Shown here: positions 16,284 to 19,739 of the stretch, in pieces
Position numbering within the stretch: position 1 is the stretch's first letter
Layout: each line of letters starts with the position of its first letter
Assembly: GCA_017646805.1 (NCBI GenBank)
Contig: JAGCLW010000063.1
Coordinates: forward strand, 1-35,559
DNA from: Paludibacteraceae bacterium
GTDB lineage: Bacteria; Bacteroidota; Bacteroidia; Bacteroidales; Paludibacteraceae
Direction: 5' to 3'
Length of the DNA stretch: 35,559 bases
Notes under the pieces: model-generated
What the model saw: the letters and a program-made list of their open reading frames with translations, nothing else
Told to the model about the DNA's origin: nothing
The model's database searches: none
Made by a program: the position numbers and the translations under genes

Positions 16284-17150
16284 ATGAAAAAAGTTTTTCT
16301 ATTTTTAACAATTGTTTTGTCAAACGCAGTGTTGTTTACAAGTTGTGTAAAAGATTCTGCTGAATATCAACAATTGTTGGCTCAAAATGATTCATTGTGT
16401 GATTCTTTGACGAATCTTCGTTCTCAAAAAGATGCCGAAATTGATGAAATGTTGAAGTTATTGAATGAAATTTCAGATAACTTTGACGCTATCGCAAGTG
16501 CAGAATCGTTGATTACGCGTGAAAGTCAAAATGAAATGGGAGTTTCGACAAGTGCAGTGGAGCGAATCAATAAAAATTTTCAATTGATTCAAAACGCACT
16601 ACAAAAGAATCGTGAAAAAATTGCTTTGCTTGAACAAAAAGCAAAAAAAGCCGGTCGTGAAAATACAGAATTGCAAGCTACAATCGAACGTCTTACTCAA
16701 CAAATTGACGTACAAACAGTTGCGGTAGATTCTTTGCAAAAAGAAATTCGTAAAAAAGACAATCGTATTGTAGAACTTGATGTAGAAGTTGGTCGTTTGA
16801 ATGACGAAAATCTTGAAAAATCTGCTCTCATTCAACAACAAGCCGATGAGTTGTCTGCCGCATGGTATGTATTTGGAACAAGAAAAGAATTGAAAGCTCA
16901 AAATATTATTTCGGGAGGAGTATTCAATCGTCGAGTTCTTCAAAAAGATTTTAACAAAGATTATTTTGTGAAAATCGACAAGCGTCAAATTAAGAACATT
17001 CCTGTGTACAGCAAAAAAGCAAGATTGTTGACCAGCCACCCACCAAAATCGTATGAAATGGCAACAGAAAACGGAACAAAAGTCATTATCATTAAAGATG
17101 TAGATGCTTTTTGGAGTGTGTCTAAATATATGGTTGTTCAAACTAATTAA
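16284..17150 (+). CDS. Coiled-coil lipoprotein, function unknown
   Basis: Lipoprotein of 288 residues with signal peptide MKKVFLFLTIVLSNAVLFTS and lipidated Cys21. Residues about 30-190 form a long coiled coil rich in Gln, Glu, Lys and Arg (for example AALLEQ-type heptads in EKIALLEQKAKKAGRENTEL). The C-terminal region about 195-288 is a compact domain beginning WYVFGTRKELKAQNII, with FFVKIDKRQIKNIPVY-like strands and ending in WSVSKYMVVQ. Proteins of this layout recur in Bacteroidales and are called only lipoproteins. A role at the inner face of the outer membrane is plausible but not shown. It is flanked by its own promoter and a strong terminator, hence monocistronic. Confidence 0.8.
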   Translation: MKKVFLFLTIVLSNAVLFTSCVKDSAEYQQLLAQNDSLCDSLTNLRSQKDAEIDEMLKLLNEISDNFDAIASAESLITRESQNEMGVSTSAVERINKNFQLIQNALQKNREKIALLEQKAKKAGRENTELQATIERLTQQIDVQTVAVDSLQKEIRKKDNRIVELDVEVGRLNDENLEKSALIQQQADELSAAWYVFGTRKELKAQNIISGGVFNRRVLQKDFNKDYFVKIDKRQIKNIPVYSKKARLLTSHPPKSYEMATENGTKVIIIKDVDAFWSVSKYMVVQTN

Positions 17151-17174: not shown

Positions 17175-17218
17175 AAAAAAGCCACAAATTAACAAAAGGA
17201 ATAATTTGTGGCTTTTTT
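17175..17218 (+). terminator. Strong intrinsic terminator
   Basis: A perfect 16-bp stem, aaaaaagccacaaatt (17175-17190) with aatttgtggctttttt (17203-17218), around a 12-base loop ends in a T-run. It may act in both directions. Confidence 0.92.
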
Positions 17219-17249: not shown

Positions 17250-18626
17250 ATGAAAAAGATTTTTTTGTCAATTTTTTTATTTGCTTGTTTGTCTTTGACG
17301 GCACAAATTGATACTTACAACGATAGCCTTCGAGCAGAACCTTCGGCAGATGTGGATTATGCAATGGAAGTGACCAATCGTCTTTGCGATTATTCAATGT
17401 ATGGGCGAGGAATTGCAAAAGAAGGAGACAAAGTGGCGGCACAATATATAGCTGACGAATTGAAATCTATTGGAGCAGAGCCAATTGGTCGTGGTTATAT
17501 GCAACCTTTTTATATCAGTGCCAATGTTTTTCCTAAACGAATGACATTGCAATTGGGAACTGATTATTTGGTGCCGGGAGTGGATTTTATCATTGATCCA
17601 ACGGCTCCTTCCGTGTCAGGAACGTATGATGCTGTGACGATAACTCGTGCCGATATGTTGAATCAAATGACATTGATGGATAAACTTCGTCAGGCAAAAG
17701 GAAATTTTTTGATTATTGATAACAATAATTATGAAGGCGAAAAACGTGATCAAACGCAAAAAATCAATATGAGAATTGATAATTTTCGTAATGATGCAAA
17801 AGTTGGAGTGAAGGGTGTGATTGTTTATGATACGCTTCGTGTTCAAAGTTGGTCTTCAGCAACAATGCAAACGGAAGTTCCTGTGTTTTACGTATTTAAA
17901 AAAGATGTAAATCTTGAAAATGTTGCAGAAATTAAAGTTGCGGCTGATGCGGATTTTTTGCCAAAGTATCAAACTCAAAATGTAATTGCAAGAATAAAAG
18001 GTTCTGTAAAACCAGAAGAATATATTGTGATTACATGTCATTATGATCATTTGGGAATGATGGGCGAAGCAGTGTATTCTGGGGCAAACAATGGAGCTTC
18101 TGGGGTGGCAATGATGTTGTCTTTGGCAAAACATTATGCGATGATTCCACCGGCATATTCTGTTGTATTTATTGCTTTTGGTGCAAATGAGTTTGGTCGA
18201 GAAGGAGGAAATGCGTTTATTAAAAATCCATCAATTCCGTTGTCGAAAATTAAGTTGTTGGTTAATTTTGATATGATGGGTTGTGGATATGATGGCGTTC
18301 GGGTTATCAATGGAACTTCTTTTCCTGAATATATGAATATTTTGACGAAGATAGCACGTGAATATCGTTTGGTAAAAAATGTGGAGGCGGTTCGTAATTT
18401 GTCGTATTTTTCAGAACATTTTGCATTTTCAAACGAAGGAGTTGGTGTGAAATCAATGATGGTTTGTTCTTTAGGAGGAGATTATACTACTCGAAAAGAA
18501 GATGGTACAATTTCGCTTGTGCCACAATTGTATAAGCAAATTCAAGATACAAAAGAGATGATTCCATACACGAAATTTGCAGAAATGAAAAATTTGTTTA
18601 TTCGTTTCTTTGAAACGTTAAAATAG
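17250..18626 (+). CDS. M28-family metallopeptidase-like protein, active site altered
   Basis: Secreted protein of 458 residues (signal peptide MKKIFLSIFLFACLSLTA) with a PA-type insert in the first half and an M28 aminopeptidase fold in the second. Retained metal ligands are H264 in HYDHLG, E314 in ANEFG, D341 in NFDMMG and H390 in SEHF. Two key positions differ: the bridging-metal Asp of the GADDNASG motif is Asn281 (GANNGASG), and the general-base Glu of the EE pair is Asn313. The protein is full length, so it looks like a deliberate family member rather than a broken gene, probably a weak or non-catalytic peptidase-like protein. It stands alone between two terminators. Confidence 0.85.
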   Translation: MKKIFLSIFLFACLSLTAQIDTYNDSLRAEPSADVDYAMEVTNRLCDYSMYGRGIAKEGDKVAAQYIADELKSIGAEPIGRGYMQPFYISANVFPKRMTLQLGTDYLVPGVDFIIDPTAPSVSGTYDAVTITRADMLNQMTLMDKLRQAKGNFLIIDNNNYEGEKRDQTQKINMRIDNFRNDAKVGVKGVIVYDTLRVQSWSSATMQTEVPVFYVFKKDVNLENVAEIKVAADADFLPKYQTQNVIARIKGSVKPEEYIVITCHYDHLGMMGEAVYSGANNGASGVAMMLSLAKHYAMIPPAYSVVFIAFGANEFGREGGNAFIKNPSIPLSKIKLLVNFDMMGCGYDGVRVINGTSFPEYMNILTKIAREYRLVKNVEAVRNLSYFSEHFAFSNEGVGVKSMMVCSLGGDYTTRKEDGTISLVPQLYKQIQDTKEMIPYTKFAEMKNLFIRFFETLK

Positions 18627-18644
18627 AAGAAATAATTTCGATAG

Positions 18645-18684
18645 AAATAGGGATAAGTCGTTTGAGACATATCCCTATTTTTTT
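18645..18684 (+). terminator. Intrinsic terminator after the M28-like gene
   Basis: aaatagggata (18645-18655) pairs with tatccctattt (18670-18680), 11 bp, followed by T residues. Confidence 0.88.
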
Positions 18685-18729
18685 GTTGAAAATACCGATA
18701 CACAATAGATTACCTCGATTTTTTTTTAT

Positions 18730-18737
18730 TATCTTTG
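18730..18737 (+). promoter_or_regulatory. -7 box of the OmpA lipoprotein gene
   Basis: TATCTTTGC, perfect consensus, 28 bases before the ATG at 18765. It rules out an upstream start at 18735. Confidence 0.6.
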
Positions 18738-18764
18738 CATGTTTTTATTGTAAAATTAAATAAA

Positions 18765-19739
18765 ATGAAAAAAGGTTTTTGTTTTTGTCTTTGTTCGTGT
18801 TTGTTTTTCTTGTTTTTTATTTCGTGTGCTCCGATTTATAAATGTGGAGATCCTATTCCGGTAAAAAAATCTGCTTTTTGGGGAAAACGTTTGAAAACAG
18901 TTATTCAAGAACGAGATGTACTTTGTGAAGATTTAACAAAACGAGATACTACGATTGCGTATTTGAAAAATGAAATAGATTCGTTGTCTTTGGCGTTGAA
19001 ATCGTGTGATAGTCTTTCTGCGGTTTTGGGAGATGCAAATCTTGTTTTGCAAAAAAATTATGATGATCTCCAAAATGCAAAATTGTCGGAAGCGGAAAAA
19101 TTTAATAATGCATTGGCATTGAAGACAGAAGAATTGAATCAAAAAACGGCTGATTTGGAACAGCGAGATGCTCAACTTTTGGCAAAAGAAAAGGAATTGG
19201 CTGAAAGGGAAAAATCTTTGGCTGAACTGAAAAGAAAGTTGGCTGAAAAAGATGCTGCCGTTAAGTCTCTTAATGATGCGATAAAAAAGGCTTTGCTTGG
19301 TTTTGATTCTGACGAACTTTCGGTAGAAATGCGAGACGGGAAAGTGTATGTTTCTATGTCGAATAAGTTGATGTTTGCTTCCGGATCGTGTGAGGTTGAA
19401 CCAAAAGGTTATGAGGCATTGAAAGTTTTGTCCGACGTCATGAAGAAAAATCCTGAAATTGACATTTTGATAGAAGGACATACGGATAATGTGCCGATGA
19501 AACAAGGAAAAGGATCTTCAATTAAAGATAATTGGGATTTAAGTGTTATGCGAGCAACAAGTATTGTCCGAATTTTAACATGGAAGTTTGGCGTGTCACC
19601 AACTCAAGTGACAGCTGCAGGTCGTGGCGAACATTTCCCTATTGCAGATAATGCGACAGCAGAAGGGAAAGCTAAAAATCGTCGTACGGAAATTATTTTG
19701 ACACCGAATTTGGACAAAATTTTGAATCTAAGCAAGTAA
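18765..19739 (+). CDS. OmpA family peptidoglycan-binding lipoprotein
   Basis: Outer-membrane lipoprotein of 324 residues. The signal peptide is unusually rich in cysteine and phenylalanine (MKKGFCFCLCSCLFFLFFIS, likely lipidated Cys21). Residues about 45-180 are a coiled coil with repeated LAEREKSLAELKRKLAEKD-type heptads. The C-terminal OmpA domain (about 195-315) has LMFASGSCEVEPKGYEALKV, the peptidoglycan-binding EGHTDNVPM (GHTDN at 238-242), the invariant NWDLSVMRA, and KAKNRRTEIIL. The layout suggests a spacer that reaches from the outer membrane to the cell wall. The ATG at 18765 was chosen because the -7 box precedes it. The next gene, dusB, begins within 50 bases. Confidence 0.9.
   Translation: MKKGFCFCLCSCLFFLFFISCAPIYKCGDPIPVKKSAFWGKRLKTVIQERDVLCEDLTKRDTTIAYLKNEIDSLSLALKSCDSLSAVLGDANLVLQKNYDDLQNAKLSEAEKFNNALALKTEELNQKTADLEQRDAQLLAKEKELAEREKSLAELKRKLAEKDAAVKSLNDAIKKALLGFDSDELSVEMRDGKVYVSMSNKLMFASGSCEVEPKGYEALKVLSDVMKKNPEIDILIEGHTDNVPMKQGKGSSIKDNWDLSVMRATSIVRILTWKFGVSPTQVTAAGRGEHFPIADNATAEGKAKNRRTEIILTPNLDKILNLSK

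Follow-up and report, generated by a model that had tools for sequence, protein, structure and literature searches.

Loss of the zinc-bridging aspartate and the general-base glutamate in an M28-type protein of a Paludibacteraceae clade, a probable pseudopeptidase

In M28 aminopeptidases, a carboxylate bridges the two zinc ions and a glutamate activates the water; without the former the two-zinc centre should not assemble properly, and without the latter the water is not activated. Table 1 of PMC7522609 gives the zinc ligands as H85, D97, E132, D160, and H247 for the Streptomyces griseus aminopeptidase (SGAP) and as H97, D117, E152, D179, and H256 for the V. proteolyticus aminopeptidase. An M28 enzyme can stay active when only its base is mutated: AaaA E147A (equivalent to SGAP E131A) retained 46% activity, with a neighbouring Glu suggested by the authors as a possible substitute (PMC3426542), and the V. 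proteolyticus E151H structure (2anp) is called 'functional' in its entry title. According to PMC4000134, the transferrin receptor is an M28 homologue without peptidase activity that works by protein-protein interaction, and the metallopeptidase-like CA_C2195 has been suggested to lack peptidase activity as well. Non-catalytic M28 homologues are thus already known as a kind, to which a clade of bacteria in which the loss is graded adds a new form. No publication on this clade was found in the open-access literature, and one may have appeared elsewhere.

Here we describe such a protein from a Paludibacteraceae bacterium. The window, i.e. the whole stretch of DNA that was analyzed, comprises 35,559 nucleotides of contig JAGCLW010000063.1 (assembly GCA_017646805.1). 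It contains an intact open reading frame for an M28-type protein of 458 amino acids, in agreement with the earlier note on this DNA, which had called the gene full length and provided with a signal peptide; the latter is read from the sequence. The gene and the parts of its product are as follows.

17250..18626, + strand: candidate M28-type pseudopeptidase gene (open reading frame, Pfam Peptidase_M28, predicted fold)
17250..17306, + strand: apparent signal peptide, probably of type I (residues 1-19; sequence inspection)
17502..17957, + strand: putative PA domain-like insertion into the M28 fold, approximately residues 85-236 (from the alignment with the BSAP structure 6hc7; boundaries approximate)

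The protein matched Pfam Peptidase_M28 over residues 244-451 with 96.3 bits (E 2.5e-27; curated cut-off 21.3). An AlphaFold2 model computed from 53 sequences (pLDDT 91.8, pTM 0.89) predicted an M28 fold that is closest to that of the Bacillus subtilis aminopeptidase BSAP/YwaD (6hc6 and 6hc7; Z 32.1, 371 aligned residues, rmsd 3.9 for 6hc7); other M28 aminopeptidases matched as well. The match to BSAP, an M28 protein with an inserted domain, spans residues 25-458 of the model (20% identity), and BSAP was also the best PDB sequence match of the window protein (E 3.6e-10). The motifs GANDNGSG and GAEELG of BSAP correspond to GANNGASG and GANEFG in the window protein. Residues about 85-236 we take to be a protease-associated (PA) domain-like insert, partly from M28 architecture; a Pfam search of the window protein returned no PA domain match. 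A 14-column insert around TTRKEDGTISLVPQ (residues about 413-427) was absent from the other 11 aligned relatives and coincides with a low-confidence region of the model. At the N-terminus, the model shows a helix (residues 2-16) followed by a low-confidence linker, which fits the apparent signal peptide, and the N-termini of the corresponding proteins in the eight related genomes described below resemble that of the window protein. The protein is probably exported, to the periplasm or the cell surface.

Three further groups of known proteins share the fold. The ectodomain of transferrin receptor 1 (Z up to 27.8) belongs to a longer human chain (617-640 residues), and a binding role is something that we infer for the window protein. 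CA_C2195 (3k9t; Z 26.2) resembles the window protein as a bacterial M28-like protein without catalytic residues, but has an extra winged-helix domain and another insert and is assigned to DUF4910, whereas the window protein matches Peptidase_M28 (PMC4000134). Bacterial glutaminyl cyclases (7d1e, 7cjg; Z 28.5) are shorter, with 276-292 residues versus 458. They bind zinc by D, E, and H with an Asp in site 2 (ligands as given in PMC7522609), and the window protein has N281 instead.

The residues of the presumed active site were assigned in an alignment of 127 ortholog rows.

18039..18041, + strand: His264, retained metal ligand, corresponding to SGAP H85; invariant (H) in all 127 rows
18045..18047, + strand: Asp266 of the HxD motif; D in 127 of 127 rows
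18090..18092, + strand: Asn281, replacing the zinc-bridging Asp (SGAP D97); from codon and alignments
18186..18188, + strand: Asn313, replacing the general-base Glu (SGAP E131); from codon and alignments
18189..18191, + strand: Glu314, retained metal ligand (SGAP E132); from the ortholog alignment
18270..18272, + strand: Asp341, retained metal ligand (SGAP D160); from the ortholog alignment
18417..18419, + strand: His390, retained metal ligand (SGAP H247); from the ortholog alignment

The five ligand columns thus hold H264, N281, E314, D341, and H390, i.e. four of the five ligands are kept and the bridging aspartate is an asparagine. N313 occupies the general-base position directly before E314, and codons 281 and 313 both read AAT. 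The earlier note had made the same two substitutions and four preserved ligands out of the motifs, and comparison with the published ligands confirmed this assignment. It had also considered that acidic residues at adjacent positions might take over. This was looked for in the alignment and not seen; there is no acid within three residues of N281, and the acids close to N313 are the ligand E314 and E318.

To define the distribution of these changes, 155 loci were examined, of which 148 gave a BLAST hit at 1e-10 and seven did not. By score and coverage, 127 of the 148 were retained as orthologs; the 21 dropped loci were mainly distant M28 paralogs by score, plus L148 and L149. The bridging-Asp column of the 127 rows contained D (117), N (4), C (4), and S (2), and the base column E (119), H (4), N (3), and Y (1). 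The ten rows without Asp correspond to nine genomes, L004 and L076 being one contig (G001). L076, isolate RGIG10032 of a Paludibacteraceae bacterium from yak reticulum, is the G001 contig itself and was the one clade member among the best 80 of 447 relatives in the scan of named genomes. Five of the nine genomes belong to the genus of the window (G000-G004) and four to another genus of the same family (G027, G054, G554, and G555). Asp was lost in all nine, and the base was also lost in seven. A sequencing slip does not account for Asn281 and Asn313, because G002 and G027 also carry both asparagines and Asp is absent from every clade genome.

Outside the clade, both acids were intact in all 117 ortholog rows. 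They were also present in all 14 additional class-level loci, which were taken by best score from the 379 genomes (of 395 searched) that matched; one of these loci has Gln for His390. The ligand columns vary outside the clade too, with His390 replaced by Gln in L145 and L180 and Glu314 by Asp in three rows. Two orthologs with an intact D/E pair that are identical over the tree columns (L033 and L081, from G106 and an NC_groundwater Bacteroidia MAG) contain an in-frame stop and Asp in place of the Glu ligand, and are possibly an inactivated copy. Within the family, 47 of 358 genomes matched at E 0.001, nine of which encode the clade protein; the genus member G005 gave no match, but its genome is only 51% complete. 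Viral contigs, searched with six peptide patterns from the window protein, yielded no relative. None of the nine clade reading frames has an in-frame stop, and all nine proteins exceed the Pfam Peptidase_M28 cut-off. One clade member (G002; L157:7399-8853) continues for about 40 residues past the C-terminus of the other members.

The same nine genomes encode a second M28 gene, glutaminyl-cyclase-like by reading of its motifs. Unlike the window gene, it has kept both the His and the bridging Asp as well as the acidic pair in every one of them; the later ligands Asp and His are likewise present in eight (the G001 copy is cut off before them). The loss of the acids is therefore specific to the window-type gene, and M28 chemistry has not been lost genome-wide in the clade.

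A maximum-likelihood tree was built from the best-scoring 62 of 126 rows, excluding columns 280-282, 313-314, and 390. With these trait columns excluded, the nine Asp-less genomes formed one clade (support 100/100). Its neighbours on the tree were four intact rows (94/91, not starred), one of them from the same family (G579, L057). This ortholog has intact catalytic residues, is the best-scoring intact relative found (38% identity), and has no Cbp1-type gene within the 17 kb examined. The 62-row tree requires one loss of Asp, one loss of Glu, and two losses of His390. The first branch in the clade consists of G554 and G555 (Ser281, Glu313), and the remaining seven genomes (99/98) share the Glu loss. 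Residues 281/313 of these seven are (i) N/N in G000, G002, and G027; (ii) C/H in G001, G003, and G004; and (iii) N/Y in G054. The earlier note had proposed a family tree to see whether a clade shares both changes; the tree does show one clade with Asp lost in nine and the base in seven genomes, although the exact N/N pair is confined to three of the nine.

Further ligands differ within the clade. His390 was replaced in four genomes, by Ser in G001, G003, and G004 and by Tyr in G054, and E314 is unchanged in eight of nine. In G554 (L056), the general-base Glu is present and the following Glu, a metal ligand, is Val, such that the site was damaged by a different route. H264, D266, and D341 are invariant throughout. 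Across the clade, position 281 is N, C, or S; position 313 N, H, Y, or E; position 390 H, S, or Y; and position 314 once V. Such continued change is unlike an enzyme under catalytic constraint.

Seven predefined catalytic columns were compared by permutation with the other columns conserved in at least 95% of the outgroup (41 columns in total), using eight clade rows. The catalytic columns did not deviate more than the other conserved columns (p 0.14); the loss is thus specific and no general decay of the active site is claimed, a result that counts against a pseudopeptidase. Since 21 of the 41 columns were invariant among these eight rows too, the constancy of H264, D266, and D341 is weak evidence for metal binding. 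Other outgroup-conserved positions that changed in the clade are 282, 320, 339, 369, 389, and 429, apparently near the motifs.

Selection was strongly purifying among G001, G003, and G004, all with the C/H variant (dN/dS of 0.002/0.347 for G003-G004, 0.075/1.128 for G001-G004, and 0.078/1.148 for G001-G003). Pairs that include the window gave finite values for three of eight comparisons, all near saturation (0.548/1.644, 0.589/2.253, and 0.579/2.600), and no value for five. The statement in the earlier note that the gene is maintained is thus borne out in this one lineage, with the window's own pairs near saturation.

Three elements flanking the gene were also considered.

16284..17150, + strand: Cbp1-family coiled-coil lipoprotein gene (NCBIfam NF052320)
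17176..17217, + strand: hairpin with T-run, terminator-like, between the upstream gene and the M28-type gene (z -5.2)
18636..18690, + strand: hairpin with T-run, terminator-like, after the M28-type gene (z -7.9)

The product of the upstream gene scored 260.3 bits against NF052320 (cut-off 90). According to PMC3949742, Cbp1 of B. fragilis binds collagen, is located in the outer membrane, and is a putative lipoprotein. Each of the nine clade genomes has a cbp1-type gene upstream of the M28-type gene and in the same orientation. It is the immediate neighbour in eight; in G027, one HAD-type gene stands between the two. The gap measures 99 bp in the window, 13-38 bp in G001, G003, G004, and G054, and 160-318 bp in G554, G555, and G002. 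Six family genomes that lack the M28-type gene (L171-L176) were examined as well. All six have a HAD-type gene after cbp1, and five have rsmI before it; a distant M28 match (E 2.2e-13) was all that one of the six, G006, gave. The adjacency is therefore partly inherited gene order, and this order together with the HAD-type gene of G027 weakens it as proof of joint function. The flank upstream of the pair holds a coaX-like gene in G001, G003, and G004 (L156, L158, and L159) and rsmI in the other six clade genomes; names of coaX and HAD-type genes were assigned from protein starts, and the rsmI of the window matched TP_methylase. That the pair is intact in G001, G003, and G004 despite the altered flank mildly favours a link to cbp1. 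The O-glycosylation motif D(S/T)(A/I/L/M/T/V), as defined in PMC3949742, occurs at residues 25-27 in eight of the nine clade proteins. As a trait shared with Cbp1 it was rejected, since 56 of the 117 outgroup rows also carry it among their 45 N-terminal residues. The downstream neighbour (18735-19739) encodes a coiled-coil plus OmpA-domain protein, for which no match was detected in the nine regions examined around M28-type genes.

In the window, the hairpin at 17176..17217 separates the cbp1-type gene from the M28-type gene. With hairpins on both flanks, the latter is probably transcribed alone in this genome. A consensus terminator scan, which covers loops of 3-8 only, found neither hairpin. 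A scan for sigma-70-type promoters, whose scope excludes Bacteroidota promoters, gave no + strand match upstream and one - strand match inside the gene. Hence, of the promoter context and terminator described earlier, the flanking T-run hairpins were recovered and an upstream promoter match was not.

Taken at face value, the draft state of the genome and the lost catalytic residues could point to a decaying gene, a pseudogene in the making, or an assembly error, and clean estimates of selection are limited to three other clade genomes. Nine open frames without stops, strong purifying selection among these near relatives, and losses common to several genomes make this very unlikely. It is also rather improbable that the protein is still an ordinary aminopeptidase, in which the carbonyl oxygen of Asn281 would bind the metal and Glu314 would serve as both ligand and base. 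Four ligands are retained, and the activity of the AaaA base mutant (PMC3426542), together with that implied for V. proteolyticus E151H by the entry title of 2anp, lends this idea some credit. In the window protein, however, Asp and Glu are both absent, neither loss occurs in the 117 plus 14 other ortholog rows, and other clade members have lost further ligands, four genomes H390 and one E314.

Changed chemistry is unlikely, if somewhat less so. A single metal held by His264, Asp341, Glu314, residue 281 (Asn, Cys, or Ser), and His390 might support a different or slow reaction, and G001, G003, and G004 might have a new His264-Cys281-His313-Glu314-Asp341 site. H264 and D341 are invariant in nine of nine genomes and E314 is kept in eight; the three genomes in which H390 became Ser have Cys281 and His313, two residues well suited as ligands. 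Single-metal M28 relatives are known, namely the glutaminyl cyclases and a model of GPAA1 (PMC7522609), and CA_C2195 is another (PMC4000134). On the other hand, the single-zinc relatives tabulated in PMC7522609 retain Asp at the equivalent of position 281, the retained H264 and D341 may be structural given the 21 equally invariant columns, and no gene nearby hints at a reaction. A related idea, which we regard as a long shot, is that the metal site is being rebuilt after loss of the Asp and then of the base, with the new Cys/His set (His264, Cys281, His313, Glu314, and Asp341) of G001, G003, and G004 as its outcome.

We therefore consider that the window gene most likely encodes a maintained M28 pseudopeptidase with a non-catalytic binding role, probably secreted. 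A non-catalytic role is the most likely one because both the bridging carboxylate and the water-activating Glu are missing, and the protein resembles known non-catalytic M28 homologues in combining the predicted fold with lost catalytic residues and a maintained gene (maintenance having been measured in three clade genomes). The earlier note had left the choice between a pseudoenzyme and changed chemistry; clade-wide acid loss and selection support this pair of readings, with the pseudoenzyme as the more probable of the two. For the pseudopeptidase, the following course of events may be envisaged. The ancestor of two genera in one family would have lost the zinc-bridging Asp, as seen in all nine genomes; the lineage to seven of them would then have lost the general-base Glu; and the site would subsequently have diversified into N/N, C/H, and N/Y. 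The BSAP/YwaD-like fold would be retained, with two-zinc, Glu-assisted hydrolysis no longer possible. Metal may still bind, because the window protein keeps four ligands, H264, D266, and D341 are fixed, and E314 changes once in the clade. The protein would most likely have been kept to bind a peptide or another protein at or close to the former cleft, possibly in concert with the Cbp1-type lipoprotein encoded nearby.

Pfam alone would annotate all nine clade proteins as M28 peptidases. The clade offers a graded series of one site, from an intact ortholog in the same family through a base without the bridging Asp to the N/N, C/H, and N/Y forms. If the site is indeed being rebuilt, the series would lead from a two-zinc peptidase, past the branch that keeps the base (Ser281/Glu313), to a new site that holds one metal for binding or catalysis and acts together with a Cbp1-type surface lipoprotein. 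These graded variants could reveal the order in which a two-zinc site is dismantled, and whether metal binding outlasts catalysis.
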